This document shows positions 23,901 through 56,121 of a stretch of DNA of 64,000 nucleotides, piece after piece. Positions within the stretch are counted from its first letter, which is position 1, and every line of letters starts with the position of its first letter. The notes beneath the pieces are model-generated. The model was not told the DNA's origin, did no database searches, and was given only the letters and a program-made list of their open reading frames with translations. Source of the stretch: Apostichopus japonicus (lineage: Eukaryota; Echinodermata; Holothuroidea; Aspidochirotida; Stichopodidae); contig NC_092563.1 in the NCBI RefSeq assembly GCF_037975245.1, positions 22,476,960 to 22,540,959 on the forward strand, read 5' to 3'. The translations under genes and the position numbers were made by a program.

Positions 23901-26900
23901 TAGAATAAAAAATTTCTTAGCTATGTGGGGAAGTTGTTCTTGGCAGTAATCAATATAACATAGATGAATAATGATGGTTGAGTTTTTGTCTCCTTAAACA
24001 ACGAAATCGCTTATAGTAATACTAAAAGGGTATGAAATATTTGTTTTGCTTCCCCAACTAACTATCTCTTCACAACCTATACACTCAAGTTGCCGTATCC
24101 TGTCTAGAATGTTTTATGAACCTATTCAGCTTTGCCCACTATGGAGTCTAGTCCGTTTCATACTCCTCCCCCCTCCCCAATACACCTCCCTCATCCTCCC
24201 CTACCTCATTCCACGATCCAGGCATGGCAGAAAATGAGTACCTTCTGTTCAGGCACATATCCTCCATCTAATTCGACAGCACAGTGTTTTGAACAATTTT
24301 ATCCAATCAGTGGATTTATTGTACGTTGATGCTTGGTATGTTAGTTTATTTGTAAATGTACAAAAGATTTACCGCTGGGTAAATTTGCAATCCATCAAGA
24401 AACACAAAGGATGTTTTTCTAACCCTTTTGAATTGAGTGCAGCTGTTAGATTTAGTAGACAGCGATGTTTTTTAGTATTTTCAATTAAGTGTACTGTAGA
24501 AGGTTTTTTCATATTTTGTTTCTCATAAAATACTAACAGCACCAAGTTTCTGTTCAAAAAGTCTTGCATTTAAATTTATTTGTGTAGTAATTTGCACATC
24601 ATGTTCCACGATTTGCTATGCGATACCTGAATGTAGTGTGCAGTTCCAGTGCAGTCTTTTTCCCAGGATAGTGCCGATAGTCTCATTTAGGGGTAAACAA
24701 AAAATATATATAAAGGGGGGTGGAAATTTCAGAGATATTGCAAACAACTTTGTTTATTTCTGATGTTTCTCACATAACAATGAATACATAGTTTCATAAT
24801 TAACATTGTTAAATTTTTATTAAATTTGCCTTCACCCCCGCCCCCCCCCCTGTGTGCTTGCTGTCCATTCCATTAACTTTGTATTGTTCGGTAAAAATGC
24901 CACTGTACTTTTAAGAAGCATATATACCTCCCCAAACAGTCTTGGTCAGCTAATAATTTTAGGGTAATCAAGTTAGTCTGATCAAAATTCACAATTTCAG
25001 CCCAGATGAACAGAATGTGAATAATTTGACTATCCTATGTATGTTGTATGTGCTGAAATGTAGACCTTGGCAAAACTGTGCGACATAAGTATTGAAAAGG
25101 GATTTCTATGTTCCCGCATATATGATCTGAGATGTAAGAATTAATTAGCAACAATCTGTTGGTGTATTTTATGCTCACGATGTAATTTTGAAATAACAAT
25201 GTAAATGCTTTGGTGGTGAAGTATAATATCTGGTCAGGTATGTGTGTACTTGTATGCTCTGACATTGTTGTATCTAAATTGATTGTTACTGAGTATGTGC
25301 CCAGTATCGATCCAGTCGCTTGGAAATTTAAATTGTAAAATCATCGATTTTGCGAATACCGATATGTACAGTTGATGCACAGATGCAGTATCCACTGTTC
25401 TGTCACAGAAATAAGTGCTACCCATATTGCTACCAAGGGCAAAGTTTCCTCTGGTTGTCCCTCGGACAACCAGGCCTTAAAAGTTTGGTACTGTAGGCAC
25501 TAGGCGGAATAATTGTAGCAAAATAGCAGTGACCAATATGTGTAGGTTTATGAATAGAAACCAGCCTTAGGAGTGATAACCAATTTATCATTTTACCTAC
25601 AGTATTTGGTTATATTTAGTAACAACGCAATCTGAATTTGATGTAAACAAGTTAAACAACTAGTCGATAACCTCCATAGCGGATTTAGGTGGTCGGAACA
25701 GAATCTCGGACGACTGGACGGCCAATTCTGCTACCAATTGTGAAAAATGCATTGTTTTAAATCACACTCCTTAATTAGGTTGTGCAGCCAGTTGCAGAGA
25801 AACTGTAGAATCAAAGGAATGCCATATTTCATAAAGCTGTGCATTACAAAGTAGGTAGTTTATACACTGTGATCTGTTTCCATTTTCAAAACCACTGAAT
25901 TTCCGTACCAGTTTATTCCTCTCGTCCGTTCCGTTGATTAGTGTTTGGTGTATGGTCATGCTGGTATGTAGGATAATTTCTCGGTGATATCTATTGGTCG
26001 TCATATACAGTCCTACGCAAACCCTTATAAATTGTATTGTGAATACTTATATGGTTAATATTTTGTTTGATTTCAAAAGTCTTCATATATGAACTATACA
26101 TATCAATAATTAGCTACTTGTCACTCTTTTATGTTCTGTTTGGACAGTAGGATATATTTTTTACTCCATGGATAATAGTCTACATTTTGCAGACTTTTGT
26201 AATTTGTGAGACTGTTTTCAGTCCACTCGTCGTCAATGACATTCTGAAGGTCGTGTCAAGGAGAGCACAATGTAATGACGGTATCAGACCCTCAATGCGA
26301 TGACCGTCGGAGATTGCGCCCTCGCATCAGATAACAAATATATTCACACATCAGACTGGAGAAATAGAATTCTCCGTCCGACAGTATGTACTGTACACTA
26401 AAATGAGCCAAACAAGAGATCTGCCCTTAAGATCATCAACAGTTTCATGGTCAATTCCATGATAAGGTCAACATCATACCAAAAAATTTAAAATCATTGT
26501 ACATTAAAATTGTATAAGTTTCCAATAAATAGAATACTTGTAGTTACTAAAAATAATTTTTTCACCCCCGAAACATCATTTGTTTGATTATGGGGTCAGT
26601 TATAACAAATGGTTCCCGTTGTAACTAAATTATGAAAAATACAGTGAAATTTCATTTTGTGCAGATTTGTACATAGTAATCATAGATATCATCAGTTTTT
26701 TGGACTAATTATATTTGCTATAGCATAGTGCTCACTTAATAGCTTCAATTTTTTTTCGACATCAAGGCATTAGACAATAGTGGTGAATTGAAAACACCCT
26801 CCATTTACTGTCACGCGAGTCACAAAATTTACTGTTTTTGTTTTTTTTCTCCTTGCCTGCACAATAGTTTTACCCCGTATAATGAATATCAAGTCTTCAC

Positions 26901-29900
26901 ATAGATACCAAAAGGATTACTGAATTTTCCTTTCCAGAAGATATTCAAATTTTACGGAAAATCACCCTTTATGAATGTCACGCGAGTCACGTCACGCGAG
27001 TCACGTCAAATCAAGATAGTGTTTCTACCTATTTACTGTGTGTTGGACTAATTATATTTGCTATAGCATAGTGCTCACTTAATAGCTTCAATTTTATTTT
27101 GATATCAAGGCATTAGACAACAGTGGTAAATAGAAAACAGTAAACACCCTCGATTTACTGTCACAGAGTCACAAAATTGACTGTTTTTGCTTTTTTTCTC
27201 CTTGCCTGCACAATAGTTTTACTCCAAAATAATGAATATCAAGTCTTCACATAGATACCAAAAGGATTACTGAATTTTCCTTTTCAGAAGATATTCAAAT
27301 TTTGCAGAAAATCACCCTTTATGAATGTCACGCGAGTCACGTCACGCGAGTCACGTCAAATCAAGATAGTGTTTCTACCTATTTACTGTGTGAAAATTAC
27401 AGGGATGTTATCTAGTTTGATGAATGAATCACTGATTAAAGATATCATGTGCATTCCCCTTTAATTAGGCAACTTGAATAATATGGGCACACATAATGCA
27501 ACTAATTATCATAATTTCATTTGAAATATCAGAATTTAAAATCATGAATATTTATTCGCAATATAATGCCTATTTTATCACCACATTTGGAAAGTTAGCA
27601 CATGTCATTGATTTTTTAGTATTATACTAAAACATAATCTACATTTGTATCTGGCAATGCCATGTGCTATGACTTGACAACCTTAAGGTCTTAACTGCTC
27701 AATCATTCCCAAAATCCTATGAGCAAATGTATCTTCTCAAATATTACACTTTTGGTTTATTCAAATATGACAAATGAGAATGGTAATTTGAATCACATTT
27801 TGATAGATCTGTTTCTTCTATAACTTTCAAATGAGTGACTTCAACAGACTAAATATTGTTATAAATATTAATTGACAAAATATATTGCCTGAACAACTGT
27901 ACTACCCGTACAGTATATTACCTACTGTCTGCAGTCATGAAGGTAACTCCGGGACATTAATATCATCTGGAAATTCCCAAGGGAAGTACCTTTTGGACAC
28001 TTTCTAGACCAATGAATGTTATATTTCACTATGCAAGATCTGTACCCTCAATTCACTACTGCATTTGGTCTAGAACTATCCGAAAAGTGAACTTGTCACG
28101 CGAGTCACGTTTTCTTGTCACGCGAGTCACAATACATCTTCATCGTTATTTTCATGCGTTACAACTTTTTTTCAAAGTTGCATAGCAATTGAGGTAGAGT
28201 TATTTTTCAACTTCGGTATGATTATAAAAAGTGATTGGAAAAATTTTAATAAGACATAAGAAATCGAACATTTGTGTGTGCATTCTGTAACTGTCACGCG
28301 AGTCACGTTTAGTTTTTCGCCAATTTCACCCCCAATACTTGAGGTATAAATATTTTTTCTCTACTGTTGTAAGCATTAAGGCGTACATTCACTGCTACAT
28401 TAATGCTTTTCTCCCAGGTAATTTTTTTATTTGTTAAATGATATCAAATAGAGAGGAATTTGAGTAAAAATGTCACGCGAGTCACCATGGAATTGACCAT
28501 ATACAGAAACATGAGTGAATGATGAGGAATGGTGGAGGGGAGGAAGGGAGGGAGGGAGGGAGAGAGGGTGGGCAGAGGGAGGGGTGGAGAGAGGGAGGGA
28601 GGAGGTAGACTGAAGAAAGTGAATGAGCAAATAATGACCCCGGCTGTTGTTCATAGTAATCAGTAAATATATCATATCTATGCAAATTCAAAAGTGGAAA
28701 GTATGAAAAATTTAATCTTTAACATAACTATTGGGAATGAAATTTGACTTATCAACTAATGTCCTACATTGTTATGAGATTTTAGTGTATATAGGATACC
28801 ATTGATATTTATATGTCAAAATCCCCCTCCCCCACCCATCCAAAATTTTCTTGACAAGTATGAGGGTATCCAATAAAAGTGTAATCAAAGCGTACCTGAT
28901 GTTTGTGTACACTGTCTTTATGTCAGCCTGGTGTGTTGATCAAAACCAAGCATGTGTTGATACTAGCTCTGCATCCTATATGTGTACTGTAAGTTAATTA
29001 ACATACCTGATGGGCTGTGTGGGCAGTTGAATTTGATGATGGAGCACTGATAACAAGTGAATTTCACCAATGGGCTTGTTATTGCACAAAATGTTAATAA
29101 ATGCCAAATATCTAGAGGTAATTTAATTTATAATTCAGATAGTCATATTAAAGAATGAGTACTGTTACTTTCTATGTTTTTGGTATTTTCTGTATATTGT
29201 TTTAAAAAGGCCATTGTGATGTAAATAGCTCTATTTCTGTTTCTTGTTCTCCCCTTCCTAGTGGTTATGTAATAGGTACGCCTATTCTCTTCCACAACCT
29301 GTGCTCATTTTCCCCTGTATAATTAGTAGTGAGCCAGTGGCAACAGTACTTTCTTTGTTCTGCCAAGTTGCTGGTTTTTAGTAAACATCTTCTCTTCTTA
29401 CTTTCTTTTCTTAGATAAGGGATGCCTTGTCTTAGTTGTTTCAGTTTTAGTGTAAGCATTTGTATGCAGATTAGTCTGTGTAATCAGCTCTGATTGGTTC
29501 TAAGTGTTACTCTTGGTATCTAGGGTGTTTATAGCCAATCAGAGGTGTTAAAAGGGTCACATGTTGTTACCCTGTGGTTTAGGAGCTTCCTCCAAGGTGT
29601 TTTAGGAGAGAGAGGCAGTTTGGTTGTCAGCCAGTCAACAGGGCCTGTTTGTATATTAGCCACCCTTGATATCATAGTCTGTACACTACAGTATACATAT
29701 ATATAAAAATAGTTAGAGAAGTTGTCTTTCTTGTGCTTAAAGAATACATATATATCTACATAAATATAACTTTACTGGAGGATTTAATTGTTAATTATTG
29801 ATTTGCTGTACGTTTGTGAACATTATTTCATCGTTTTATTGGATTCAATGGAACTGAGAGTTGTGTTCTAGCTGCTAGTTGCCATTTTGTACTTACATAT

Positions 29901-35900: not shown

Positions 35901-38900
35901 TCTTAGATTTATAAAGGTATTTATAACGTTCCTTAACGGTTCCTATAGATGTTACTGTATGCACTTTCTCATCTACAGTTTCTAACCTGCAAAACTTGGT
36001 AACAGTTAACACTACCCCTTTCCCTCGCCCCTCCTTCCACTGACCCACTGGCAGATCACTACCCACATTCTTTTCAAGGTTTTTGGTACTAATGTGACAT
36101 GTATGTTATTCACTCTGTGATAATATATATATTAAAGTCTACATGTGGTTCCGCTCATGCTCGTGTATTTGGTACAACTGTATGTGAGAACATTCTGGTC
36201 AAGTGGTTAAGGTAGTGGACTTACAGTAAGGCTTACAGGTTCAAGTCCTGGCCAGATCATTACTGTACGTTGTGTCCTTGGGCAACACACTTTATCTCCA
36301 TTGCCTCTCTTCACAAAGGTGTATAATTGGGGACCTGTGAGATAAACTGTCAGTTTGGTGCTGTTTCTCTGCTATCATGTGGATGGATTTGTCTCTGACA
36401 GGTTATCATATGACCAGGGTAATATTGTTATGCGCCTTGAGCACTGTTATCAGTGTATATGTCTGCGGTTTTATAAATCCTCAATAGTATTATAAATTGT
36501 TATGCCGTGCAGTGGAGACTAGTGTAATATATTTCTCGTTCTGCTGTTGTCATTTCCACAGAGGACCAAGTCTGACAAACAAATGGCAGTTACATGTGAA
36601 GAGAAGCTTTATCAGCACAGAACACTCCAACAGTACTATAACTACACACGTTACAGAACTATGGAGAGATGTGAGTATTTACAGTGCATTACCTCTATTA
36701 TAACATACAGTTTGGTAATCTGTAAGATATTTTGTTTCACAATAACACCAGTTCCAAAGTACAGTACTTATATATCTAATTTTGTATTGACTATGTCCCT
36801 CCCCTACTGTACCCATCTACAGTACTCTTTTATTTCTAAAGTTTTCCACTTAAACTGTGTACCAATTGTGTACCAAACATTGCAAATATTAACAAGAACC
36901 ACCCACTTGAACATTACGTTTGCAGGTGAACCTGACATAAAGGACTCTAGGTAACCACTCAGAAATTACGCAACAACTTCCTCCTTCATATTTTAACACC
37001 TTTAATATGGATGTTCCCTTTTTAGCTCAGGGGACCGTAACTGCTGCAGCTCCTTAATGTAATCTTGCTCATCACTTCAACCAAAACCCGTTTTGCAGTT
37101 TTTGCTGGACTAGAGATTGATGATACATTACTGTACAGACATGGTGAAGTTTTAATAATAGATTTACTGTTTGTCTGCCAATACCTGTCTCCCCGTACCC
37201 ACGCAGTTTATGTTTCAACACAAACCATCAATCAATTTTCCCTCCTGTTTAAATTATGCAAATTATTTTCCAGAATCGAAGCTAAGAAAGGAGCTTCGGA
37301 ATCAAAGTTGTCATTAAGAAAACTGTGCAAATGAATGTTGACATTGTGTCAAAGTTCACCTGCATACATGCAAGGACAAGATTCGATGTAATTAACTTAT
37401 ACATTATTGTTTCATCATCAGATTCAAGAGGAGGCTTCTCGTGGGGCTAGATTGGTCTCTATAGAACCCACCATTCCGGCAGCGCATCACCAAGGTGAGA
37501 TTGATATTTAATCAAAGAGATTTGATTGGTCTGGTTAATATTCATTAGCAATAAGTCGTAAATACTAGCTTTGTGCGGTAGTCGGATTTCACACAACCGG
37601 TAGTGTTGCAACATGAATCCCGGTATCGTAACTACAACCGGTATTTTCTTCAACTTTCATCTACGGTTCAAAGCACTTAGTTACGAGACTGTCAATGTCA
37701 TACATTCAATATACATAGCATATAGGTTATGTACATACTCGTACACGCACGTTCTAAAAAAAAATTAAAAAAATAACACGCTATATTAGGGCCTTTGTTT
37801 TTTAACATACACTTCCAAAAAGAAAAGCACAAACCTTGGAAAAAAGCAACCCACACCATCCTTCATTCATACTCGACGTACAATATTAGATTAACACGTT
37901 CGCACGTGGATTAAACTTGTAATCCGTACACAAACATAAATTGGGAGTTCCCCACTAATCCATGATATTGGAATAGGGCAACCCCTTCAAGTTCAAAAGT
38001 TCACAATGAAAAGTTTTTAACTATCAACAAGTCACCACGTGTTTGGAACTTCAGACAATAAGAATGTTACATAGGGGCTACGTAAATACGGGATTATAAA
38101 CTACATACATAAGAATAGTACAGATTTATTTATATCGTTAATCGGCTTTTGTTCACTCCAGAAAATATACTTTCAATACGTACAATATCAATCTTTCGTA
38201 CAAAAGATCTTAAAAATTAAAAAAGTAGCGAAAAATAAATATAAATGACATCGTGGAACCCCCCGCATTAATAAACGAATCCATTTCATTACATCATCAA
38301 ATCTCAAGAACTGCTGTGTGTACCTGTATCGTACCCTAGGCTATAATAATATACAGTCCCGTGCGAAGATGGATTTAAACTGGATATACTCCCTGCGGTT
38401 TTGGCTCAAAATTTATTAAATCGTTATAATAATTATAACAAAATGAGGTGAAATGCATAAGAGTAAGATTTGGTACATGGGAACTTTGACAATCATCGTT
38501 TGAAGGAAGAATAAATAACGAAAATTTCAGAGTAACTTTGAGGTCCCGTAACATGCTGAGCGCAAGTAACGTTCGATATTTGGTGTAGCCTAGGTGCAAA
38601 TTACTACGTGAAAAGTTGATTCGTTAATATATAGGTCTAGGCCAGTACGTAAATTGGTCAGATATTATTCAAACTAAGAACACAGGAACCAGAAAAAATT
38701 GTGTTTTGTTTTCTTTATTTCAAATAGTAACACGTAGATATTTTTATTATGTCCGGGATTCCCGGGAATTATACCGAAACGAATGTAATAACCGGTTGTT
38801 TTCCCACTACCGGTAGTATTTACACATTGCTTTGTGATCGGGATTAGTCAATACCGGGATCGGGATCCCGGGATTCACTTGACTATCGGGATCCCGCACA

Positions 38901-41900
38901 ACCCTAGTAAATACTGGTCCTATGATATTTGTACCCAATTTTTTTTCCATTCACGTACCTTACATGTATAGTATTCCTAAATTCCTACCTTTGTTTATTA
39001 AAATGTGTACAAGCATATCATTCACATTTTTCTCCGTTGATATGCGCATCATTATTGGTCCTGATCAAGCGACCACCACTTCCAGTGGTAACAAAAAGTA
39101 GGAAAAGACCATTTAAAACCTGTGTTGACTAGTTTTTGTTCGATATCGAGTGTGTATTCAAATTGATAACAAAATTATCAGTTACATTTGTTTTATTTCA
39201 GGTGTGGGGGGGGCGGTGGGTGAGGGTAGGGGGAGCTGGTTGTAGGCAATTTCAAGACTTGATATGTGTGGTCATAGTATTACAAACTAACGCCTTAAAG
39301 CTTGTGGGTTTATATGTAGCTTTAAGGGTGATTTTGTGTACTCAAATTAATGTGTTCTAAACTACATAGTTGTTTACTTTTACATATTTTTTCCCTATTC
39401 CTGAAGATGATCTAGAGAAAGGCAGTTGGGGAATTGGTAGGCCTCTGCCTGCGTGAGTTTGCATGGTATGCATGGTGGCATGCGGTGTTAAGAGGCTCAT
39501 CCAGGTCAAAAAATAGTTCTATATAAATAATAAAACTGACATAATGACACAAATTCTTGTTGAGTTCTATGCTTCTACATCGTCGTGAAAATTTGTTAAA
39601 AATATATATTATTTACACAACAGAGTTGATTCAGATGCAAGCTTTGTGAAATTTTTACTTTCTGTAGCGAATATTATTAGTCCTTGAATGGTATTTATTC
39701 TCATGTAACGTTTTGGTTACAGTCACCAAAACTTCAAAGTCTTGCTATTTTTTTTGTATCTGCAAATCTGCATTAACTTTTCTTCTTTCCACCAAAAATT
39801 TGGAGTAACATTTGATTAGATTTGGTAACACTGGCCACCAAATGCAAACACATGGTTACAAGAAATGGAGGAACTTTTTCATAAACTTTTTAATGTCAAA
39901 CTGCAGTTTGCACTCAGTCTCTACATACTTGATTCTACTCAGTAATTTGGATCAATTTTGGCTATATATGTTTAGCTACATACAGTACTGTGTCAAAATA
40001 TTCAATTATGCCTGTCACAGGAGAGGACATAGCCAGAGTTTGATGCTTATGGCTTATTTAGTAAGCATGTATATTGTATCATATTTACATCTATGGATAT
40101 CCATTCCATGCATTATCATTATTGAGAAATTGAAACATATGATGTTAATTGCTAGTGGCATATTGAAAGGTGTTTAATGAATGGTTTTTATACTATGGAA
40201 TGGTAAAGTTACATCTAAACTTATCAGAAGTTGGTATGGTGAAGGGGAAAAAGGGGGTGCATGGATGGGAAATGGAAGGGGAAAGAAAGGGTAAGGGGAT
40301 GTGGGATGGGACTGGTGGACAGGGAGATACAGTACCTTATGTCCACCCAATCCCTGTTCTAGGTATTGCATGTTATTGTTATTACAGTATAACCGAAATG
40401 ACTTTAGCAGAGTAAGAGAAAATGTTATTTAAAATCTTTATTGAAAGCAGCTGGATTTTGTTTACAGTTTAACATCTCTAGTCATCTTATAAGGGTTAGC
40501 AGATTTGAATGGTTCCTTTTTTGGCTTGAAAAACAAATCCTTATGAGATGGAAAGTCATCAGGGTTTAGGCCTTCACAGTAGACATACTGTTTTCTGTCA
40601 TTTTAAGTGTTGAGCACAATTACAACCTAATTTACAGGTTTTATTAAACAAAACAAAAACTTTGTAGAGATTGAAGAACAGATGTTGTATTAGAAAACAT
40701 GAGGGACTCCAGTGAGAAATGAAATTTGAATATGAAATGCAACCAGTTGTTTTATCAGGCTTCCTCAGAGCTCTACAGTATCAGACTTCAAAGTCACATT
40801 TAAAGGAGTCACAAACCCTCCATCATTAATAGTGTATGTGAAAGATATTAGTGTCATGGGCAACTCACCCACCTCACCCTCCTCACCTAACCCCACCCTC
40901 CTCACACTCCACAGCCAGGAGACACAAACCCCCCTTTGTAAAATGGTCTATTTGATTGAAATAATTGTCTCGAACAACTCACGCGCCCCACCCCACCCTC
41001 CTCATCCACTCCACCCTCCACAGCCAGGAGTAGCAAACCTACCATCAATAATGGGCAATGTGATAGATATAGCTGCCATGAACATCTCTCCATATAACTC
41101 ATGTTATATCCCTTAAATAATATTTAAAAGTCACTATAAGCCATCCTGCTCTTTCCAGACCCAAGCAGGTATTAAATTTACTTTCCAAAACAACATTCAA
41201 TAGAAATAACTGTCATTCACAACTTCCCCTAGACACATAAGAAAACCTTTGTTTTCCACGTGGGAGTTGTCACAAATTTAATGTTTTTTTACCCACAGAA
41301 GACTTGATCAAGCTTAAATATTATGACATCATCAAGCCACTTATTCTTCATATTTGTTTATGTCTTTCTTTAGTGATTACAATGTTAATGCTTTGTAACT
41401 GAGATTGGTGTTTCATATTATATGCTGAATCTTAAATATAGACCCTCTTAAACATAACCTACAGTAATTATGACATTGGTTTCAGTGTCATTACTGTTAA
41501 CATTCTACCTTGAACATTTGAAAAGCAAAACAAAGAGAAAACTAAGAGGTTTCACATCCCAGTGGCATTGTAACATCATAGATTTACAAAATGACAGCTC
41601 CCCAGAAATGACTTTGAATTTCGAAACAACATTTCTTTTTTAGCTATTTAGCAGAGTTGTTTTTTGCAACGATCTCTGCCATATAAGCTCAAGTTGACGA
41701 CTAGGGTTCGTGCCCCCCTTTAAAGGTCAACATTTTGCTGGTACAGTTTTTTTGAAAAGGATAGTTAAATCTGGGGGGATAAGTTAAAGTACACTTTTTT
41801 TGTGCCCCTTCAATGAGATTTTTACAATTTTGTTTATCAGAAATTTGTGTAACATAACAATTCAGGGTATAAAACCTACTGCAATATATACATCTTTTTC

Positions 41901-44900
41901 CTTATGGTCATTTTACATAGCATTTTGCAATGGGATACAAGATGTTATTCCCTGTGTTATGAAAGTTAATATATGATGTAATCTCTGATGGCAAGGCTGC
42001 ATGGATATGCATGCTTTAGTTTCGTTCATCGGAGATAGTTTTATCCTTAAGAATGCCGTATCAGTACATTGCATCTTTTGATTTAGGTGTGGTACCTGCT
42101 ATTTGTCGGGTAATTATGTGATTCAACCCGCCTACATATTACCCAGTATTAAACCGTCATAGTTCAGTGAAGGACAAACAAAAGCTTCTGTGATTTAAAG
42201 CACTCTGGCCTCGAGATATGAAATTTGTTTTCTGTTATCAGAGAGACTTTGTTACTCTTATCTCATAATTGCTTATATGGCAGAATCCCTCACATATTGT
42301 CTCTTCTCACGATAAGAACTACTGTAGTAAGTGATTTTAGCAAGAGGACTATGTTTGATGAGATCTTTCATTTCAAAGGGGAGGTGATTAGCGTAGGTTA
42401 CTGTAGGCTTACTTTTCTGTGTGTGGACATCTGGAGCAGCATATTGGTTATGAATTAACTTAGATTTTTATGGTAATTTACATACTTAATTTACATAAGT
42501 TATTTACATAAAGCACCATAACTTTATTAAGGACCACTTACACTAAGTACCATTAAGTAGATGCCATAACGTCAAAAGTAACTTCAAACTCCCTGTCAGT
42601 TTTCCATTGTTTATCTAATTTAATTAAATGGTTAAGAAAATACAGCTGTTGAAAACTTCCAGTTTTACTGTGCAACATATTCTGTATTATATGAAAGGAA
42701 AGCAATTGTATACACTGCTTTATTATTTTCTATCCTCAGTTCAAGAAGTAGATGTCTTCTTCGATGTACCCCTTCACTTCAACCCTTCGTTTTTCATCTA
42801 CCAGGCAATTAGTGTGCCTGTTCTCTGGCATAGAGAGACACACCCTAGCGGAGACGCCCTGGAGTGCGATTGGTTCTCACATTTTATAACCTTCCTCAGC
42901 GAGGGATGGAAGCTAGTTGAGATACTGTTTGATAGCTCTGTCAGACATAGAGGTGAGAGACATTTATGGAATGGAATCATAGAAGGGAGAATAGAGAGAG
43001 AGAGAGAAGAGGGTGGGGGTGGGGGGAGATCCAGTCTTAAAATTCATTAATCCTCTTCAAAAAGGCTTACGGAAAAGTGCATTTAATGTAGGCAGCAGTG
43101 TTATTACCTGTGAACTCACAAACCTAGGAAGTGAGTTGTGTGAAGGTGAAAGAGATAAAACCGACTCGTTATGTATTTTATGAGCTAGAATGTTACAAAG
43201 GCCCTGGTGTATGTACTGACAAACCTGTTTTGCCAGAGGGAGCCATGTTTTGATTGTGTCAATAAAGTGCAGCATGTTTGATGTTTTATTCTGTCTTATT
43301 GTCATTCTAGTGACAGTCCCTTCCCGTACCCTTACCATGAACTCTGTGTGGGTGTTTGAGAAGAGAGCAGAGGACGAGAGCAATCCCTCACCGAGATGGG
43401 AGGGAGTCATCATACGTTACATGCACAAATCATACGTAAGTGTATTGTCTCGTAATTACCAACTGTTCAGTTTGATTCCTTCCTCACTTACATATGTCTC
43501 ATCTCAGCTATCATCCATGATACATTATACTCTATATTGTAGTTCGTTGCTCTGAACACTGACCTTAAACTCTGGAATTAAATACAGCATTTCATTTGAC
43601 TTTGATTTCTTTATGACTACTACACTACTGCATCTTTTATGAAAAATGTTAAAGTCAGGAAAGGTTTAAGTAAGGGAGGTGCTTGTCTCAGCTGAGGAAA
43701 GACTTAATGTGCAGATCACTAATGTGAATATTAATGAAATTGTTTTATCGCTGATTTGTGATTTTCAAAGATATGTCAAGACTGCCCTTCTCTGTTTCTT
43801 AAAACAGACTGCATACATTTTCACAAATCATCCTTATAGTTTATGGTGAAGATCCTTTACATGAGTCAGTTGGTGACAATCTAGACAATGTACAAGCCTA
43901 TCTATCAATTTTAAAAACTTAATCATTATAAAAAAATATAAAAAAAATCTTTTTTTGGAATTAACCCCTAAGAGAATGTTTTCAGACTATCTTCTTTCTC
44001 TAATTTTCCAGACTCGATTTGAAGATTTCAGAGAATGCTATGCCAAGACCTCATGGAACAAAGTGATCCACACAATGGGTAAACGTGGATGGGAGCTTGC
44101 CTGCATTGTGACTACCCCACCCAGTATTCAAAAGGGATCCTTGGTAACATCCATCAACTGTAAAATACTAATGTTCTTTCAGCGTCCTTTCACTGGCAAC
44201 AAACCTCTCCGCAGGATGAGTTCAAATACCCAAGGAACGGTAATAAGCCCTATAAGGGTAGACGGTAATGCGTTTCCTGAGTGGAGCATTCTTGGGGAAA
44301 GTCACCTAGAGGAGGGAAGACCTGTGATTTTACCTCCTTACTCAGAGCGAGGGGTAGACATCGGCCCCCTGGAATCCACCCCCGACAGATCTATAGCCCC
44401 AGTACCACTTCCAGCAGAGCCCCCACCGACCTACGCAGAGGCGGTGGCTGGTGACGTTACAGTTTTATTTAGTACCAGTGTAACAGAGGCATCATTGCCG
44501 ACTGGGAATGCTGGACCCACCAACCCACTCACCACCGTTCATGCAGCTGTGGAACATGCTGCCCCTCTGCCTCCTACCACTGTAACAGCAGATAGGACCC
44601 ACAGTGCTCCAGGAATGGTACCTAGAAATGTCCAAACAGCAGCTAATACTGCCAACGCGAATTCTGTGCCTTACCAGGGTGGTAGCGCCAACACGGTACC
44701 ACCCGCAAGTGATCGTATTGTGCCAACCATCTCCAACAGTGTAGTCAATGCATCAACTAGTGTCGTCACTAATGCTTCAATTCCATCAAGTACAAGGAGA
44801 ACCACTGATAGCTCTGCTTCTGCTCAAGGTACAGCAGATCCATCAGCCCAGAGGAACGGGAATCGTGGTAACCAACATGCTTCAAATCATGACGGCAATG

Positions 44901-47317
44901 TTTCTGCCAGACCACCACCTAAACCTCCAAGGACCTTGGTTGAACCAGGAAATAGAGCCACAAGACCATTATCAGGCACTCTGCCAGCAAACTCTACCCA
45001 TACAGGAAGTGGTAGGAGGAGAGAAAGATCGGAGGTGACTCATCCGAAGCATGGTATGCATGTAAGACATGGCAGTGCTACGGTTGGATCCTCTGCACCA
45101 TCCAGTCATAAAAGAGCTAACCATCCTACTCCTGCCAACCGTACAGCCTCAAATGGTTTTCAAGCGCCACCAAAACCTGCAAATCGACCCGAGAATAGGA
45201 AAGAAAGAGAGAGAATAAATACGGAGAGAGGAATGGGAGGAAATAACTTATCCGCCAGAGGAGAAAATCCGAGAGAGAAATCTTTAGAACAAAACCATGG
45301 AAAGCATGTACATCCTCCTTCGAGGCAAGGACGACAACCTCCCGAAGGAAGATATCATGCAACGTATAGAAGACCCGAGGAAAACAGAGCGAGGAAGGCA
45401 GAGAGAGAAAACCACGGAGATCATCAAACCTCAGCTACAACAAGGATGACTAGGTATGAAAAGAATAGGCCTGTAAGAAGGGAAGCCTCAAAGGAGAGAA
45501 GTAACCATTTCAGCGTTGTTAAAGGAAAGGACCCTGTGCCAAAGCCAAAAGACTTGCCCGACCACTGGTCTCATCAATCGAAATTTGATGGCCCGCAGCC
45601 TGCAGCGTTGGAGAGTGGTCGTAAAGACCTTGCCTTCAACCCAGCAATGGTGCAGAAGAGGCGGGATCGGGATTATGAAAGGGTCCCCGGTCGAAATGGT
45701 GAGAACGTTGGAATGAAAAGATCAAAGGATGACCTGAACTTTCATCATCATCAAGTAAGGCGTAAAAATGATGAGATAACAAGAGCAAAATTTGCAGAAA
45801 TAACTAACAATAGGCCAGTGAGCGGACCATCAGCCCAGGTGAAGACATTTCCGCAAGAGAATACCAGATTTGATCAGGAGCCACATGGGGAAAATAAGCA
45901 CCCTGTAATATCTAAGACTAGGCAAGTGCAAGGGGGTCCAGATGGTGTCAGGAAAGAGGTGAAAGAGGCAACAGTAAGAACTTTAAGAACTGCAGAGCAA
46001 TCTAGACCTCAGATGGACCAAGGCAAAAGAATCCCACCGACATACGACCAGGCTCTGATGAGAAAAAGCCGCACCCACAGTGACGATGAAACAAACCCCA
46101 AGACGAGATCCACTCCTCACAATCTTCCCGATTTAATTAGAGATAAGAGAAGCGGGGATGCCAGACAGTGGGTGGTGAAAGATCTGGATGTTGATGAAGT
46201 GTTCATCAGTAGTCAGGTGAAACCTGAATCTCAGCCCCAGAGGGGTGGACACAGCCCAAAGGTGAGACGGAACGCTAGCAGAAACGATGGCAGAACGGAA
46301 CAAAGCGTCGGCAGGATGTTCGAAGCGAGTCAAGTTTCTCAGAGACTAGAACTAGACATGTCTGACCGACGTAGTTTAGACAGTCTCCAATCTTTCATGG
46401 ATGATCAGAAGAGAAAGCCACCCGAGTACGAGACAGTTCTGGCTAAGAGAGTCGTCAAGCCCAAGCCGTTGAAGCAGAGTCATAATTATGCAGGTCCAGA
46501 TATAATCGAGCATACCTCTCAGAAGGGTCTTCCGCTCCAGCAAAGCCTGCCACTGCAAGCTTCCAACCTGCCTGCAAAATCAAAGGCCCCTCTCCCGTCA
46601 TATCAGCAGGTCATCTATTCAAGATCAGGAGCCAGGCCTAAACTGAAGCCGAGTAAAAGTGACCAGTGGTCAACGGACGATGTGTCCAGAAGGCCAGAGG
46701 TGCAACGACGCCAAGAGGAGAAGAGGCATCTAGGCCCGTATGGGAGGAAGACGAACGAACACGACAGATCAAAGAACAGACAAGAAATTCCAGTGTTGAG
46801 AACAACACAAACTGTTGACTCTTACAATCAATCAGAGAAGCAAAAGTCTATGTTGGCGCCGCCACCACTGGAAAGAGTGTCAAGAAGTTCAGTCTCACCG
46901 ATCGGCAGCGTGGACTCCTTTGATCTGATCTCACAGTGGAGTCAGGATGATGTTGAGCCACCGCCATCTAGATTGAGCAAAGATCTCTCGGGTAGGGTTA
47001 TTACGGGTGAATCAACCTCATCACAGGCTGATTCGGTGAGAGGAGATTATGCCTTGGTTAATGACAAAAGAAGTTATCCAGTTCACAGCTGGGATCCAGG
47101 TTCCGCAGTAGGTCCGGACACCGAAGAGAGTGTAATGGGTGTTAAGTCTTCCTACTGGGCCGATGGTGGAGTGAGGAATAGTGCCTTAGATAACAGATAC
47201 AGTAAACCAGCCCCAGGCACAAGTTTGAACTGTAGTCAGGAGAAGATCATTAAGAGCCCTTCCCGGACACCGTCAGTCTCTCAGCGACATGTCTACATCG
47301 GTAAGGAAATCTTATGA
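20839..47317 (+). CDS. RFTN-like: Raftlin-family protein with giant disordered C-terminal tail (7 exons, 1373 aa)
   Basis: Exons: 20839-20971, 22642-22804, 36562-36670, 37422-37494, 42740-42952, 43311-43435, 44012-47317. All junctions are GT-AG, the phases join, and the total is 4122 nt. Raftlins are acylated proteins of the inner plasma membrane that organise lipid rafts and receptor signalling. Family-like blocks in order: LEYSLL; AKFYNDGYTLNQL..LFQVIL (vertebrate LYQQGFSLAAL..IFRAIL); IQEEASRGARLVSI; LECDWFSHFITFLSEGWKLVE; GKRGWELACIVTTP; ILMFFQRP. The protein starts MGQSHTHY, a good myristoylation signal, but lacks the Cys3 of vertebrate MGC. An in-frame TAA lies two codons upstream of the start. 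After about residue 340 the final exon encodes roughly 1000 low-complexity residues rich in Arg, Lys, Pro, Ser, Asn and Gln, with PPTY 410-413, PPTY 947-950, PPEY 1075-1078, LPSY 1133-1136 and a proline-rich RPPPKPPR. Vertebrate raftlins total about 500-580 residues. A further phase-neutral exon in the 13.8-kb intron cannot be excluded. Confidence 0.88.
21246..22641 (+). repeat. Tandem array (about 119-bp unit) that copies the exon 2 splice acceptor
   Basis: Six to seven units, each holding ACCAGACCTGTT, a pyrimidine tract, CTCTCTACAG, AGTTATTATCCAGGCAAAG and AACCAAACACAAA. The last unit's CTCTCTACAG is the true acceptor of raftlin exon 2, and AGTTATTATCCAGGCAAAG is the first coding bases of that exon. 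Upstream copies at 21344, 21462, 21585, 21829 and 21949 keep an AG acceptor; the copy near 21705 has lost it (ACAAAG). The last unit is split by a TTAA-flanked MITE (21988-22557). Confidence 0.85.
21988..22557. mobile_element. TTAA-flanked MITE (570 bp)
   Basis: Terminal inverted repeats AGGATTGGTTCAGGTGT and (complement of right end) AGGATTGGTTCAGTTGT match 16 of 17. Both ends abut TTAA (21984-21987 and 22558-22561). The empty site is preserved in neighbouring array units as CACTTAAGTTATA, which confirms insertion into TTAA with its duplication. TTAA targets are used by piggyBac and Kolobok superfamilies; which one is unknown. No coding capacity. Confidence 0.9.
22642..22804 (+). CDS. RFTN-like: Raftlin exon 2
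   Basis: Frame LLSRQRNNLQAVYPL, then AKFYNDGYTLNQL and KTLFQVILSKSADLL, bounded by CTACAG and GTAAGT. Two bases enter and two leave. Corresponds to the vertebrate block ending IFRAILIKK. Its 5' edge is the template of the upstream tandem array. Confidence 0.88.
23605..23858 (+). repeat. Dispersed repeat, copy 1 (inverted relative to 41.3-41.6 kb)
   Basis: Begins CTGGGGCTGTCATTTTGTAA, includes GAAACCTCTTAGTTT and ends GATGTCATA..CTTGATCAAGTCTTC. The same blocks occur in reverse complement at 41298-41605. Both copies sit in raftlin introns. Confidence 0.7.
26447..28500. mobile_element. 2.05-kb non-coding element with 15-bp terminal inverted repeats and nine GTCACGCGAGTCAC motifs
   Basis: The left end ATGGTCAATTCCATG (26447-26461) is the exact complement of the right end CATGGAATTGACCAT (28486-28500). 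Inside, GTCACGCGAGTCAC occurs nine times in the same orientation, starting at 26810, 26977, 26991, 27327, 27341, 28095, 28117, 28293 and 28472, with one decayed copy near 27160. The last abuts the right terminal repeat. Two units of about 345 bp (from about 26697 and 27042) are tandem duplicates. No ORF of note. No clear target-site duplication was seen, so the superfamily is unknown. Confidence 0.65.
28533..28612. repeat. Purine-rich (GGGA)n tract
   Basis: Irregular GGGA/GGAG repeats on the plus strand. The Pro/Ser-rich reverse ORFs across it are artefacts. Confidence 0.85.
29500..30660. repeat. Repetitive block, possible LTR remnant
   Basis: Contains three to four copies of GGGACTTCACCTA-like words (29908-29970), paired CTATCGGACATT and TATTAAACCTTT words (30150-30240), and a downstream AGTAAAG..TTACCAAG..GTTGCACACA segment that resembles an LTR R/U5 end. 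I could not define LTR ends or a target duplication. No gag-pol frame is present. Low confidence. Confidence 0.25.
32209..32582 (-). mobile_element. LINE fragment (reverse-transcriptase C-terminus), minus strand
   Basis: On the minus strand the frame reads YRINFKIILLTYKALHGLAP, then NRSLRSSNQLLL, then NSLPLHIKLAP and FTNRLKTYLF. These are the C-terminal reverse-transcriptase blocks of CR1/L2-type LINEs. A TAG replaces the Trp usually found before NSLP. It ends with a (TTA)n tail at 32209-32223. Dead, 5'-truncated copy of a family different from the 12.3-kb one. Confidence 0.75.
36190..36490 (+). mobile_element. tRNA-derived SINE
   Basis: The head has a pol III A box TGGTCAAGTGG (36196-36206) and B box GGTTCAAGTCC (36238-36248), spaced as in tRNA. 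The body includes CCTTGGGCAACACACTTTAT, a wording common in invertebrate SINEs. The tail, from 36431, is TGCGCCTTGAGCAC..ATATGT..ATAAATC, the same 3' words as the LINE fragment at 12.9 kb, which suggests mobilisation by that LINE. The tRNA head is not a functional tRNA gene. Confidence 0.75.
36562..36670 (+). CDS. RFTN-like: Raftlin exon 3
   Basis: Frame GPSLTNKWQLHVKRSFIS and onward to TTHVTELWRD between CCACAG and GTGAGT. One base completes a Leu codon with exon 2; it ends in phase 0. The other two frames are also open over this exon, but only this one joins both neighbours. Confidence 0.8.
37422..37494 (+). CDS. RFTN-like: Raftlin exon 4
   Basis: IQEEASRGARLVSIEPTI then PAAHHQ plus one base, between CATCAG and GTGAGA. 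It matches the vertebrate block IQEAASQGLKFVGVIPQ closely. No ORF over it passes a length cut because stops flank it. Confidence 0.88.
37566..38906. mobile_element. hAT-like non-autonomous element (1.34 kb)
   Basis: A perfect 8-bp duplication GTAAATAC lies at 37558-37565 and 38907-38914. The ends TAGCTTTGTGCGG and (complement of right end) TAGGGTTGTGCGG are inverted repeats. The right end carries several GGGATCCCG/CCCGGGA words, the left end ACCGGTAG and CCCGGTATCG. No transposase frame. It lies 71 bases downstream of raftlin exon 4, inside intron 4. Confidence 0.85.
40850..41060. repeat. Short tandem units, C-rich
   Basis: Two to three diverged units share CAACTCAC, CCCACCCTCCTCA, CTCCACAGCCAGGAG and ACAAACC..CCATCA. 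Non-coding and inside raftlin intron 4. The rest of intron 4 (38915-42739) shows no exon that I can support. Confidence 0.6.
41298..41605 (-). repeat. Dispersed repeat, copy 2 (inverted relative to 23.6-23.9 kb)
   Basis: Reverse-complement copy of the repeat at 23605-23858: GAAGACTTGATCAAG at one end, AACTAAGAGGTTTC inside, and TTACAAAATGACAGCTCCCC at the other. Confidence 0.7.
42740..42952 (+). CDS. RFTN-like: Raftlin exon 5
   Basis: QEVDVFFDVPLHFNPSF then LECDWFSHFITFLSEGWKLV, between CCTCAG and GTGAGA. It corresponds to the vertebrate LDANWLEHMSDHFRKGGMLV region. Phase 2 bases in, 1 out. Confidence 0.9.
43311..43435 (+). CDS. RFTN-like: Raftlin exon 6
   Basis: VPSRTLTMNSVWVFEKRA then RWEGVIIRYMHKSY, between TTCTAG and GTAAGT. 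It matches the FIFEAV-like strand of vertebrate raftlin. Ends in phase 0. Confidence 0.88.
44012..47317 (+). CDS. RFTN-like: Raftlin exon 7 (terminal, 3.3 kb, disordered tail)
   Basis: Starts TRFEDFRECYAKTSW after TTCCAG, finishes the raftlin core at ILMFFQRPFTGN, and continues unbroken for about 1000 residues of disordered tail to TGA at 47315-47317. A donor-like TCG|GTAAGG at 47300 lies just before the stop, so a spliced variant with a different C-terminus is possible. Confidence 0.9.
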   Translation, partial: TRFEDFRECYAKTSWNKVIHTMGKRGWELACIVTTPPSIQKGSLVTSINCKILMFFQRPFTGNKPLRRMSSNTQGTVISPIRVDGNAFPEWSILGESHLEEGRPVILPPYSERGVDIGPLESTPDRSIAPVPLPAEPPPTYAEAVAGDVTVLFSTSVTEASLPTGNAGPTNPLTTVHAAVEHAAPLPPTTVTADRTHSAPGMVPRNVQTAANTANANSVPYQGGSANTVPPASDRIVPTISNSVVNASTSVVTNASIPSSTRRTTDSSASAQGTADPSAQRNGNRGNQHASNHDGNVSARPPPKPPRTLVEPGNRATRPLSGTLPANSTHTGSGRRRERSEVTHPKHGMHVRHGSATVGSSAPSSHKRANHPTPANRTASNGFQAPPKPANRPENRKERERINTERGMGGNNLSARGENPREKSLEQNHGKHVHPPSRQGRQPPEGRYHATYRRPEENRARKAERENHGDHQTSATTRMTRYEKNRPVRREASKERSNHFSVVKGKDPVPKPKDLPDHWSHQSKFDGPQPAALESGRKDLAFNPAMVQKRRDRDYERVPGRNGENVGMKRSKDDLNFHHHQVRRKNDEITRAKFAEITNNRPVSGPSAQVKTFPQENTRFDQEPHGENKHPVISKTRQVQGGPDGVRKEVKEATVRTLRTAEQSRPQMDQGKRIPPTYDQALMRKSRTHSDDETNPKTRSTPHNLPDLIRDKRSGDARQWVVKDLDVDEVFISSQVKPESQPQRGGHSPKVRRNASRNDGRTEQSVGRMFEASQVSQRLELDMSDRRSLDSLQSFMDDQKRKPPEYETVLAKRVVKPKPLKQSHNYAGPDIIEHTSQKGLPLQQSLPLQASNLPAKSKAPLPSYQQVIYSRSGARPKLKPSKSDQWSTDDVSRRPEVQRRQEEKRHLGPYGRKTNEHDRSKNRQEIPVLRTTQTVDSYNQSEKQKSMLAPPPLERVSRSSVSPIGSVDSFDLISQWSQDDVEPPPSRLSKDLSGRVITGESTSSQADSVRGDYALVNDKRSYPVHSWDPGSAVGPDTEESVMGVKSSYWADGGVRNSALDNRYSKPAPGTSLNCSQEKIIKSPSRTPSVSQRHVYIGKEIL

Positions 47318-50040
47318 TGAACAACGTAGATTGGTAAACCTCTTTAAAGGGGGTATAGAGTTAAAAGGTCTCCGAGGTAGAACTATGAAATATATGTAAA
47401 GACAAATCGAGAATGTTAACAGTAAGTCGTTGGTACAACTTCTGTTCACATGATTTGTTTACATTGGTGAGGTATGAAATATTCAAATTCTTCCCTTTTA
47501 TTGGTGGAACCAAAAGTTGCGCAATAGTATGTTATGTAATACAGAGCCCTGTTTCTCAAATGTCTTCTCCACTGCAAGCCACTGTTTGAGAGCTAATCCC
47601 AAGTAGAGACAACCATAGTAGAACATATAACAAATGACGAAAGACAATTTCAATTTTATTTGAGGGGGAATTTGGCTTGTGAACCAACCCCAAACTTTGA
47701 TAAGAGAAAACGTGGTTTATGATATTGGAGTTTTATATTTGATCCAAGAAGCAAGCTATGGATATCATATCTTGTCCAATCAGTAATCTTTTTATACCAT
47801 GATAGGTGTGGAGCCTTCAGCATCCCTGGTTTGGTTTTGCTATATATATATTTTTTTTTGGTGATAATTTTGTTTAGTTTATTATATAAGTATATCAATA
47901 TTCATGATGCATTTTGTTTATGTATATCAGCTACATTGCCTGGTGCTAATTATGCAGCTGTTTCCATAAAAGGGGGCTAATGAGCTAAAGTTATTCAACA
48001 TTGAGGTGACATCAATACATAATTTGTACGTATTCATTCTACGTCGTATTCACTGGCAAATGTTTCATATGCACTTACATTCATATTTATGAAAGTGGGT
48101 GACTTGTCAGGAAATTCATTGTTTTCATGCATGGCTTAATAAGCAGAAGAAACTCTTCCATTTTGGAATTGGCTTCAAACATCCATTGTAACCACCGGGC
48201 CAGTTTTAAGCCATGTATTCAAATTGTATCCCTGTTTCGTTGTTGTCATTTTCATGAAAATGTATTACTCAAAAGGCAGTAGAAGAAGAGCAAACCTTAT
48301 TCCTTCTTTTTATTGGTTGATATAAATCTTGTCAAACTTTAACGAGTCAGTATGGTTATAGCTGGAAGCAGGGTCTGACTAGACTGCAATAATCTCATGA
48401 GGCAGGAATATACTCTATATTAATTTGTATCAATAACAGAAATGGGAAATGACTTTGAGAATAAGTTATGAAAATGTTGTGTATAGACATTAAGTTATGA
48501 AAATGTTGTGTATAGACATTGCAGAAATATATATGAAATTATTTTATTCCTGACTTTCATTCCAGAAACAAAAATTCTCTCTGAAGTAAAATCAGCAATA
48601 GCATGGTCATATGTTAACCTGCCAAATATTAAAAAGGTTTTGCTGTATTCCTAACTTATTCCTAAGTATAAAAAAAAACGATATAACTTAAGTTAAATGA
48701 GCAATACTGATATTGGTTGTTTTGTTTGATCTCCCCAGATAAAGCAGAGGAACTGACTAATCATTAGAAAATTTAGAATCATATCTTGCTTTCTATTTTT
48801 GGATTAGTTTTACTCTACAAAATCATGTTCATCTAATTAATACATGACGATAGGAGATGTAAGCATGATAAATGGATTGCAACTTTCATTTGAGTGGACA
48901 TTTTATAAATATATATATACTTTTTTAAGGGAAACCAATATAATTCTGAGCTATGATGATTACAGTTGCCACTGGTTAGCACATCTAGGTTCCTCTCTTT
49001 AAACAAAACTGAGATTGTGCATGATAATTAGGTTCATTTTTTTTCTGGCAGGAAAAGTTGTGAGATAGTGAGGCTGCATCTAATATCTAGCTAGTATGGT
49101 GCTATATCAGCAAGACTGGTTTAAGAAGAAAATTAGGAAGTTACAGACTTTCGAGTAGTTTTGGGTTCAAGGTCCCGAGTACGATTGCTAGTGGAGCCCA
49201 AAGCCATGAGTTGAGTACATGATTATTTAATACATTTGCTGAGTATGAGTACAAAGGCATTTGTCTTGAGTGTAAGCACACGGCCATTATTTTTACTGAG
49301 TAGATGTATGAGCTACGAGTACAGAGCAGTGAGTACAAGTATGATTACTTTAATGTTAAGTTTACTGCTGAGTGTGAGTACAATTTAAGCACAGAGTTGA
49401 TAACTACAAAGTTAATAGGAAGTTTTTGTTTGTGTAAAGCTAAATTTTGAGAGAGTATAGTGAGTTCAATTGAGACATTACTGATGTCATTCATGTACAA
49501 TTATTCATCTCAAAAACAATGTGGCAGAATAACTGTCAAGATCAAGGTAATATTACCATTACCAGACAATTACTGATTCTTGTATAGTTAAAATTATCTC
49601 AGGTAACTTGTATCCAAGAAACACCTTTTACATAGAGTTTTTGTTTTTTATAGTGAGTTAGAACTTACAGTAGAAGTATATGGCTGAAGTGGTGGGGGAG
49701 GGGAGAGGAGGGCATGTAACAAGGAGGTGGGATGGTCACCATTTTATATTCAGCTATTTTACCTTGATGATGAAGATATTTTACACTTTGTTTATATACC
49801 ATGCATGTATCAGAGTGTCTATAGGTTGTACATTGTATATAAGGCATTAGCTTTTGTATGGTGTACTATCCTTGTAAACTTGCAAGTGGGAGGAAAGGGG
49901 GGGGGGACTGGGTGGGGAGGACTGGGTGGGGAGGGAGTAAGTGAGGTATATAACAGTGTTTCAATAATAGCATTGTCCTTATGTTGCTACTCTGTATAAA
50001 TACACTTCAACCTCTGAACTTGTCTGAAATAAAATAATGT
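47318..50040 (+). other. Probable raftlin 3' UTR and flank
   Basis: No ORF of note. A candidate polyadenylation signal AATAAA lies at 50028-50033; a second candidate is near 53257. A 29-bp unit (AAGTTATGAAAATGTTGTG...) is exactly duplicated at about 48462-48520. From 49150 to 49400 GAGTACAAGTAT/GAGTATGAGTAC words recur. Confidence 0.35.
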
Positions 50041-54180: not shown

Positions 54181-54206
54181 ATGAAACTTGGCGGGATCGA
54201 TGTCAT

Positions 54207-54715
54207 CGCAGAACTGTCCGATTGTAAACGTTACAGTAGCCTATACACGCGAACATTCTTCGCGCTGGAGCTGGATACCGCGATGTATAAACAACGAAGA
54301 GCCTGCTGTTAAAACTTATCTTGTGTTACACAAAGACCACGAAACCACCGATCTACTAAATATATTGCGGCTTAAGGAGTTTTTTAAATCATATCTAATT
54401 TATAAGAAATTTCACCGGAAATTATTGAAGAAATTGATCGAATCGTTGTCAGAGCAGAATATAGCGCTGAAAAGCTTAGGCTTCGCAGAACTGTCCGATT
54501 GTCAACGTTTGAGTACAGCCTACATGCGAACATTTTTCGCGTTGGAGCTGGATAGCGCGATGCATAGCCTGAACAACTCAGAGTCTGCTGTTAAAATTTA
54601 CCTTGTGTTACACAAAGACCACGGAACCACCGCTCAAGTACATGGTGGCTTAAGGAGTTTTTGAAAACATATCTAATTTTTAAGAAATTTCACCGGAAAT
54701 TAAGGAAGAAATTTA
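54207..54715. repeat. Two-copy tandem duplication (about 277 bp) with coding-like frames
   Basis: Copy 1 from 54207 and copy 2 from 54484 both start CGCAGAACTGTCCGATTGT and share CTTGTGTTACACAAAGACCA and AAGAAATTTCACCGGAAAT. In the second copy the frame AELSDCQRLSTAYMRTFFA is open; in the first the equivalent frame AELSDCKRYSSLYTRTFFA stops shortly after. A 158-codon ORF (54188-54664) crosses both but changes frame relative to the repeat. Unknown family; possibly a gene relic or a repeat. Confidence 0.5.
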
Positions 54716-56121
54716 TCTGTATACACACGCTGTTTTTGTTGTGATTACCGTATAGGTACTGTGCGGAGGGTGGGTTATGACGCAATCTGCTATGGCAGAG
54801 CTGACGTCACGTATTGTACTGTTCAAATCATATTTGAAGTGTCTATCCATAACGATTAAAAAATCGTTTCTCTGTCAAACGCAACATTAGCGTTCTCATA
54901 CTTTGACAACATGTTTGGAAAATTATTTACTATTTTTTAAGGTAACTTCTTTGGGCCACCAGACAATCCTTTTAAAGGTATGCTGTATTTGCCCCGAATA
55001 TGCTAGATATTCAAAGATGGTCACCATTGGTCATAATTCTTGAACTGTTTTTATTGCAACCATCGAGGCAATTTTCCTCACTGGGACATTCAGTCACCTT
55101 ATGTGTACCTTAAAAATGTCTGAAAACAATTTAGAGAGTAAAGACCACCAGGAAAGTACTTTTTGAAAACTAGCAATTATAGCATGCTATAATTTGGGGC
55201 CTATACTTGACAACCTTTATCATGTTTAGGCCAAGAAACGTCTGATGTTGTCCTGTTGCACATGAGGAACCGACCTTATGATCTGTGTCAGAGATCAACG
55301 GCGCTGGTCTGTGTGCTAGACTTATTAGTCCAGCCAATTTAATTGATGATCCACAGAAGGGTCATTTCTCAGAAATTAAATAGAGAAATACAAACTGGAC
55401 TCTGTAAAGAGTTTTAAAGCTTTGTTGAAATACATGATAGACAGTCATGTTTACGGTCAAAGCACAATTCAACGGTCTAAGCACAACAAATCAAAATTAA
55501 GGTTTTGCCGAAAAGTTATCGACAACACTGTGGTTACTTCAGTATTTGAGAAAGTGGTCAGATGCTGGGGCATACACTCTCATCCGGCGGATGGGGACGT
55601 TAAATGGCGGTCCGGGAGCAGGAATGGGAGTTAATTCACACCCTAGCCTCGCTATCTTCTGAACACTTATCGAAAAGAGAAGGCTTGAAATAAGCCGGTG
55701 TTCATCCACGATCTAACACGAATAGGGTCTGAAATAAAGCTACTGTAAAGACTTCCTGATCCTTGGGTCTCTAAACTAAAGTAAGTTAAATCCCCTTTAT
55801 GTATTTCTTTATAAACACGAATTTACCGATTCGTCGTCACACAAGCATAACGGTGTTCCCAAACACTTTGGCCCATTCGCAGAGAGCGAGTGAAGGAAAA
55901 ACTCAAACCAAAACAAAAGGTCTAGATGAAAGCAATGTAAAGGGGAAGATGATGAAAAAAAGAAGGTTACTTCAAGTAGGTAAAGTTAAGACCGTTATAA
56001 CTTGCCAATGGTTAACCTTTTAGGCTGATTTATACTACTCAAGTTAATAATGGTATGATACCAGTTATTCCCTCCACCCGTACTTGATATTCCTAATTGT
56101 CACACGTTGCGACAAGAATCT

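Follow-up and report, generated by a model that had tools for sequence, protein, structure and literature searches.

Does the long exon at 44012-47317 carry the last part of a raftlin-like domain together with a long tail in a single gene, and what might such a protein do? The question was raised by a first-pass annotation of the 64,000-nucleotide window (the whole stretch of DNA analysed here), which had proposed a raftlin core and a disordered tail of about 1000 residues fused in one exon. The plus-strand frame at 43877-47317 is open from stop to stop over 1,146 codons, and from the acceptor of this exon, hereafter exon C (TTTTCCAG/ACT at 44012; 6.4 bits with a simple matrix made for this analysis), to its stop codon it runs through 1,101 codons with zero in-frame stops. 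The other frames of exon C contain 55 and 81 stops in the forward and 45, 46, and 48 in the reverse orientation, and among 2,000 mononucleotide-shuffled versions of the exon no open run exceeded 237 codons. G+C content is 48% at 44001-46000 versus 35-37% in three 2-kb steps of 38001-44000. A whole-genome search (671.6 Mb; 671,581,487 bases in 35 contigs) with exon C, in which four candidates were scored, returned the exon itself as its one match, and this uniqueness makes a repeat or a mobile element less likely. The proposed fusion in one uninterrupted exon was thus borne out, as was the claim of about 1000 residues beyond the FLQRP block, since 1,042 were counted after FQRP. The core was placed in this exon only partly correctly: about 60 domain residues (profile positions 371-428 of 459) do lie there, whereas the other recognisable part sits in upstream exons (Table 1).

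Table 1. Features of the locus, and WW and HECT coding stretches lying close together elsewhere in the genome. Positions are those of the window unless a contig (C3, C13, C18, C19) is given.
Feature	Position	Strand	Basis or remark
Window	C3:22476960-22540959		contig C3 of the genome searched
Probable further exon, IQEEASRGARLVSIEPTIPAAHHQ	37422-37494	+	resembles raftlin segment IQEAASQGLKFVGVIP; colinear
Exon A, raftlin domain (from profile position 300)	42805-42952	+	acceptor 8.9, donor 6.6 bits; phase 0 to 1
Exon B, raftlin domain	43311-43435	+	phase 1 to 0; splice scores weak, 1.0 and 2.0
Exon C 5' end, about 60 raftlin-domain residues ending FFQRP	44012-44188	+	Pfam PF15250
Tail of 1,042 residues, rich in S, P and R, with predicted disorder	44189-47314	+	composition, disorder measures, model
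LPPY, PY-like, not extended	44330-44341	+	motif scan
Extended PY motif 1, PPTYAEAV (exon residue 138)	44423-44446	+	motif scan
SH3-ligand-like RPPPKPPR	44909-44932	+	PxxPx[KR] not above shuffles
Extended PY motif 2, PPTYDQAL (exon residue 675)	46034-46057	+	motif scan
Possible retained intron ("exitron"), 345 nt, frame-keeping	46262-46606	+	donor 6.7, acceptor 7.5 bits
Extended PY motif 3, PPEYETVL (exon residue 803)	46418-46441	+	motif scan
Extended PY motif 4, LPSYQQVI (exon residue 861)	46592-46615	+	motif scan
Stop codon of exon C	47315-47317	+	frame reading
WW + HECT pair	C3:1.700-1.710 Mb		4 WW
WW + HECT pair	C13:2.405-2.418 Mb		2 WW
WW + HECT pair	C18:4.868-4.881 Mb		1 WW
WW + HECT pair	C19:23.533-23.544 Mb		3 WW

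The head of exon C matched the Raftlin family (PF15250) with 20.4 bits (E 2.3e-4, profile 371-428). Exons A, B, and C have agreeing phases that keep the reading frame across both junctions, and they are predicted to be spliced into one transcript. Against PF15250, B+C scored 19.8 bits, A+C 21.0 bits, and A+B+C 27.9 bits (E 1.2e-6 against the library); A+B alone matched no Pfam family. The match is colinear, covering profile positions 300-428 in order over the three exons, and it extends to position 300 only when both A and B are included, an indication that the exons have been put together in the right order. With the 37422 exon placed in front, the score was 28.7 bits (E 7.2e-7), so that both values, obtained with an incomplete gene model, stay under the curated PF15250 cut-off of 29.4 bits. 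Full exon C including the tail scored 13.5 bits, a lower figure that we put down to length and composition. DUF4177 (PF13783) gave a 24-residue match overlapping that of Raftlin, with 15.1 to 26.8 bits by construct; its cut-off of 25 was passed in two constructs (26.4 and 26.8 bits), both carrying the 37422 piece, and in A+C it scored 22.0 bits versus 21.0 for Raftlin. By E-value, Raftlin was the top family in five of six constructs, the sixth being A+B. NCBIfam yielded zero matches, and the best hit of the joined core to solved structures (E 0.37) was not considered meaningful. Raftlin-1 has an LLNSL motif (PMC10435467; this and all papers below are cited from excerpts), which aligns with VIHTM in this gene. 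On this evidence the gene appears to be a raftlin relative scoring short of formal family membership; the annotation, which had called it raftlin outright, was right about the similarity to the end of the domain, yet the 27.9 bits lie below the cut-off and neither an MGC start nor the amino-terminal block was found in the searches described below.

Vertebrate raftlins start with an MGC acylation site and an amino-terminal block. A tblastn search with a raftlin sequence led to the stretch at 37422 (E 5.2 in the window), a probable exon of this gene with a donor AAG/GTGAGA of 6.7 bits and an acceptor of 3.2 bits (same simple matrix); its phase does not fit exon A directly, and therefore at least one exon between them is missing. 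Splice-bounded ORFs, together with tblastn and HMM searches using raftlin sequences, revealed nothing convincing as amino-terminal exons in the window. A raw-frame Pfam scan of 29.0-44.0 kb likewise showed none, although it is insensitive and missed exons A and B too (37.4-44.0 kb). No LKRP or HP block occurred in a plausible exon in a motif scan of 2.5-43 kb, and unsplit MGC codons on the plus strand are found only at 29010 and 53046, neither of them exon-like, in a scan that an intron-split MGC would escape. The 20 kb upstream of the window contained no convincing amino-terminal exon by tblastn with raftlin sequences or by the MGC pattern. Since neither such an exon nor an MGC start was found, membrane anchoring is unsupported in this gene. 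The ORFs at 20285 (IYGGFIIDALKDLINDVYQG) and 42317-42383 were considered as gene parts and left as unsupported.

Elsewhere in the genome, PF15250 gave three further matches with E-values of 0.2 to 2.3 among 33 candidates scored (contigs C8, C22, and C16). All three have stops inside and were taken as chance rather than as raftlin genes, that on C8 sitting in a serine-coding repeat. A tblastn search with raftlin sequences showed no raftlin exons near the C22 match, over 3 kb preceding and 33 kb following it, or within about 10 kb on each side of the C16 match. Short likenesses to the amino-terminal LKRPQ block and the LDADWLE block of raftlin at L002:3055-3138 (C22) and L006:2176-2292 (C16) are probably chance. 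Among viral contigs, two pattern stretches turned up as possible relatives and none was confirmed.

The tail is rich in serine (10.9%), proline (9.9%), and arginine (9.7%), and no Pfam family matched 44210-47314 at E<=10. With TOP-IDP (cut 0.04, 21-residue windows), 99% of the tail windows fell on the disordered side versus 62% in the 59-residue head. Charge-hydropathy placed five of seven tail blocks on the disordered side; the two terminal blocks, of 150 residues at the start and 142 at the end of the tail, fell on the folded side. An AlphaFold single-sequence model of exon C (mean pLDDT 33.7) showed a helix-helix-strand-strand arrangement in residues 1-56 and, in the 1,045 residues beyond, two short helices (580-592 and 786-801); such a model is consistent with a disordered tail rather than proof of it. 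The tail is therefore probably disordered, as first proposed, with the reservation that charge-hydropathy sets its two ends apart. The best hit of exon C to solved structures, a "surface protein" chain within the tail (E 0.011), was likewise not considered meaningful. The tail terminates in KEIL (47303-47314), which would presumably fit a class III PDZ ligand.

Within this tail we noted four extended PY motifs, an observation added by this analysis, three of which fall within about 195 residues. The extended form, [LP]PxYxx[AV][LIV], was chosen after the sequence had been seen; none of 20,000 shuffles of the tail reached four copies (mean 0.005). Plain PPxY occurs three times versus a mean of 0.17, a count that 5 of 5,000 shuffles attained, and [PL]PxY five times versus 0.25, which none of 5,000 attained. 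Lysines directly precede three of the four extended motifs, as judged by eye. Other short motifs stayed near or below their shuffled frequencies: PxxPx[KR] and [RK]xxPxxP (1 versus 1.5 each), YxxPhi (4 versus 3.2), dileucine-type (1 versus 0.4), and RxxSxP (2 versus 1.1). SP/TP sites were rarer than in shuffles (8 versus 17.9), and the loosely defined PP.?KP was enriched (3 versus 0.11, overlaps counted; 3 of 5,000 shuffles reach 3). The motif scan found no clathrin box, NPF, DP[WF], or P[TS]AP in the tail. With several PPxY/LPxY motifs in a region that simple measures predict to be disordered, the tail has the makings of a multi-PY adaptor, and the "large scaffold" of the first-pass annotation may be sharpened to a multivalent docking tail for WW domains.

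We give about an even chance to the reading that this single gene encodes a raftlin-like adaptor whose tail brings Nedd4-family ubiquitin ligases to membrane receptors. The carboxy-terminal raftlin-like part and the 1,042-residue tail after it would be encoded by at least three exons (42805-42952, 43311-43435, and 44012-47317), the tail being a flexible arm whose four extended PY motifs would dock WW domains, likeliest those of Nedd4-family HECT ligases. The raftlin part would bring the protein to receptors of the plasma membrane or of endocytic pits; the ligase recruited by the tail would ubiquitinate the receptor (or the adaptor itself), which would then be sent to endosomes. Candidate partners are encoded in the genome: of 70 WW candidates scored, 29 matched at E<=0.01, and of 122 HECT candidates scored, 96 matched at E<=0.001. 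At four places, by eye, WW and HECT matches share a stretch of about 10-14 kb, the arrangement expected for Nedd4-type genes. Ligands of Nedd4-family WW domains include PPxY and LPxY (PMC8509885). Clathrin heavy chain and AP-2 are interaction partners of vertebrate raftlin, and less TLR4 is internalised when raftlin is silenced (PMC7904555). Raftlin also regulates surface neuropilin-1 (Nrp1) and VEGFR2 trafficking, but in endothelial cells it inhibits rather than promotes VEGFR2 endocytosis (PMC7311514), so the effect of raftlin on uptake is not uniform.

The substrate-adaptor role is proposed by analogy with Drosophila Commissureless (Comm), whose GLPSYDEAL binds Nedd4 (PMC5578492) and whose PY motifs recruit Nedd4 for Robo1 ubiquitination (PMC12101832), although earlier work disputed whether Comm needs Nedd4 for Robo control (PMC5578492). 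Like our protein, Commissureless and PRRG4 carry an extended PY of the LPSYDEAL form and more than one PY motif, and the Nedd4 adaptor role is theirs (PMC12101832, PMC5578492). Unlike it, with its raftlin-like domain and 1,042-residue tail, Comm is a short transmembrane protein (PMC5578492). In ENaC subunits the extended PY PPxYxxL is likewise a Nedd4 site (PMC2582799); these are channel subunits, however, and their leucine stands at Y+3, whereas here A/V occupies Y+3 and L/V/I Y+4. Angiomotin has several PY motifs docking Nedd4-family WW domains (PMC8368996). Several of the points given above count against the adaptor reading, namely the Raftlin score below the cut-off, the competing DUF4177 match, the failure to find an amino-terminal exon, the weak splice scores of exon B, the post hoc form of the motif, a tail devoid of clathrin box, NPF, and DP[WF], VIHTM in place of LLNSL, the inhibition of VEGFR2 endocytosis by raftlin, and the disputed need of Comm for Nedd4. 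ARRDC proteins and NDFIP1/2 also dock Nedd4-family WW domains through several PY motifs; their folded domains, like that of angiomotin, are unrelated to the one found here.

The vertebrate raftlins RFTN1 and RFTN2 (PF15250) share with this gene profile positions 300-428, present here in three colinear exons ending in [FL]QRP. Beyond FLQRP, vertebrate raftlin tails measure about 100-150 residues (146 and 101 in the human sequences), against 1,042 here; those human tails lack any [LP]PxY, whereas four extended PY motifs are present here, and the amino-terminal half of the vertebrate proteins was not found at this locus. Long tails may be the rule among invertebrate raftlins, in which case the short vertebrate form could be derived. 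To our knowledge, how raftlin acts in vertebrate receptor trafficking is little understood. If real, a raftlin relative that docks a ligase would connect raftlin with receptor sorting along a direct route open to experiment, and it would illustrate how the recruitment of a ligase can be acquired or lost by a raft-linked adaptor during evolution. At title and abstract level, part of the raftlin literature contained no echinoderm, long-tailed, or PY-tailed raftlin, and the same level of text contained no link of raftlins to Nedd4 or PPxY. Raftlin1 is mentioned in connection with RORgammat in an excerpt of PMC12355048, and in what was available of PMC11524855 raftlin appears in the reference list only.

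The tail might also be subject to splicing. Use of a donor at 46262 with an acceptor preceding 46607 (or 46610) would shorten the tail by 115 (or 116) residues without a frame shift; PY motif 3 and most of motif 4 would be lost as well. Codon shuffles produced such a donor-acceptor pair in 105 of 1,000 cases, 43 of them keeping the frame, so the pair is within chance and this possible exitron is a lead only. Fifteen weaker donors (2.1 to 4.8 bits) lie inside exon C, acceptors above 7 bits in 44012-49000 are limited to the two next to 46607, and one AATAAA occurs within the tail, at 45214. A raftlin module combined with a Commissureless-like PY array could act as a built-in receptor-to-ligase adaptor, possibly tuned by this removable 115-residue segment with two of the four docking sites, a version that we consider conceivable if doubtful.

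These same signals bear on whether the tail belongs to the protein at all. Were it a separate downstream gene, or mostly removed or cut off in real transcripts, the internal AATAAA and the strong donor at 46262 would find an explanation, and the 15 weaker donors cannot be dismissed because exon B's own donor scores 2.0. Against this, the 1,042 codons continue from the raftlin part with no stop, the strong pair is within chance, and acceptors above 7 bits are confined to the two next to 46607; no test run on exon C and the genome gave any sign of a separate gene, and we hold this account to be highly improbable. A tail that belongs to the protein may still be a fast-evolving disordered spacer or general scaffold, its PY motifs being incidental or serving non-ligase WW proteins, such as those of YAP and MAGI type. 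Its S/P/R-rich composition on the disordered side and the absence of Pfam families would suit a spacer, whereas four extended PY motifs, when shuffles average 0.005, and the lysines seen by eye just ahead of three of them, would not, and we rate this explanation as rather unlikely.

The identity of the domain has been weighed in the same manner. The protein may not be a raftlin proper, carrying only the carboxy-terminal raftlin module (overlapping DUF4177) with a different or absent amino-terminal half. This would agree with the failure to find an MGC or LKRP block in the window on the plus strand, with the sub-threshold Raftlin score, and with DUF4177 exceeding its own cut-off in two constructs. 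The neighbourhood also differs: vertebrate raftlins have PLC-X and SF3b1 genes as neighbours, and the genome matches to these (24 and 2, respectively) include none near the window. Set against it are the leading E-value of Raftlin in five of six constructs, a match spanning 129 profile positions and three exons versus 24 residues for DUF4177, and the probable amino-side exon at 37422; moreover, the amino-terminal search was insensitive, its Pfam scan, which covered 29.0-44.0 kb, having missed exons A and B. We deem this alternative unlikely. It overlaps the other readings of the tail, and under it the adaptor role would work without raft anchoring.

The remainder of the window yielded minor observations. 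On the minus strand, 1-2300 contains open frames of low complexity, rich in acidic residues and serine, which perhaps run on into L003 and probably represent a neighbouring gene in the opposite direction; zf-Di19 matched there weakly (22.9 bits versus a cut-off of 27.5). A 188-codon plus-strand frame at 12316-12879 had no Pfam match at E<=0.1 and resembles the last part of a LINE-type reverse transcriptase ORF. A tandem array of period 121 with about six copies occupies 21269-21987 and contains open frames of 60-107 codons, and two long tandem duplications, one of 350 and one of about 278 bases, lie at 26700-27392 and 54206-54717, respectively.
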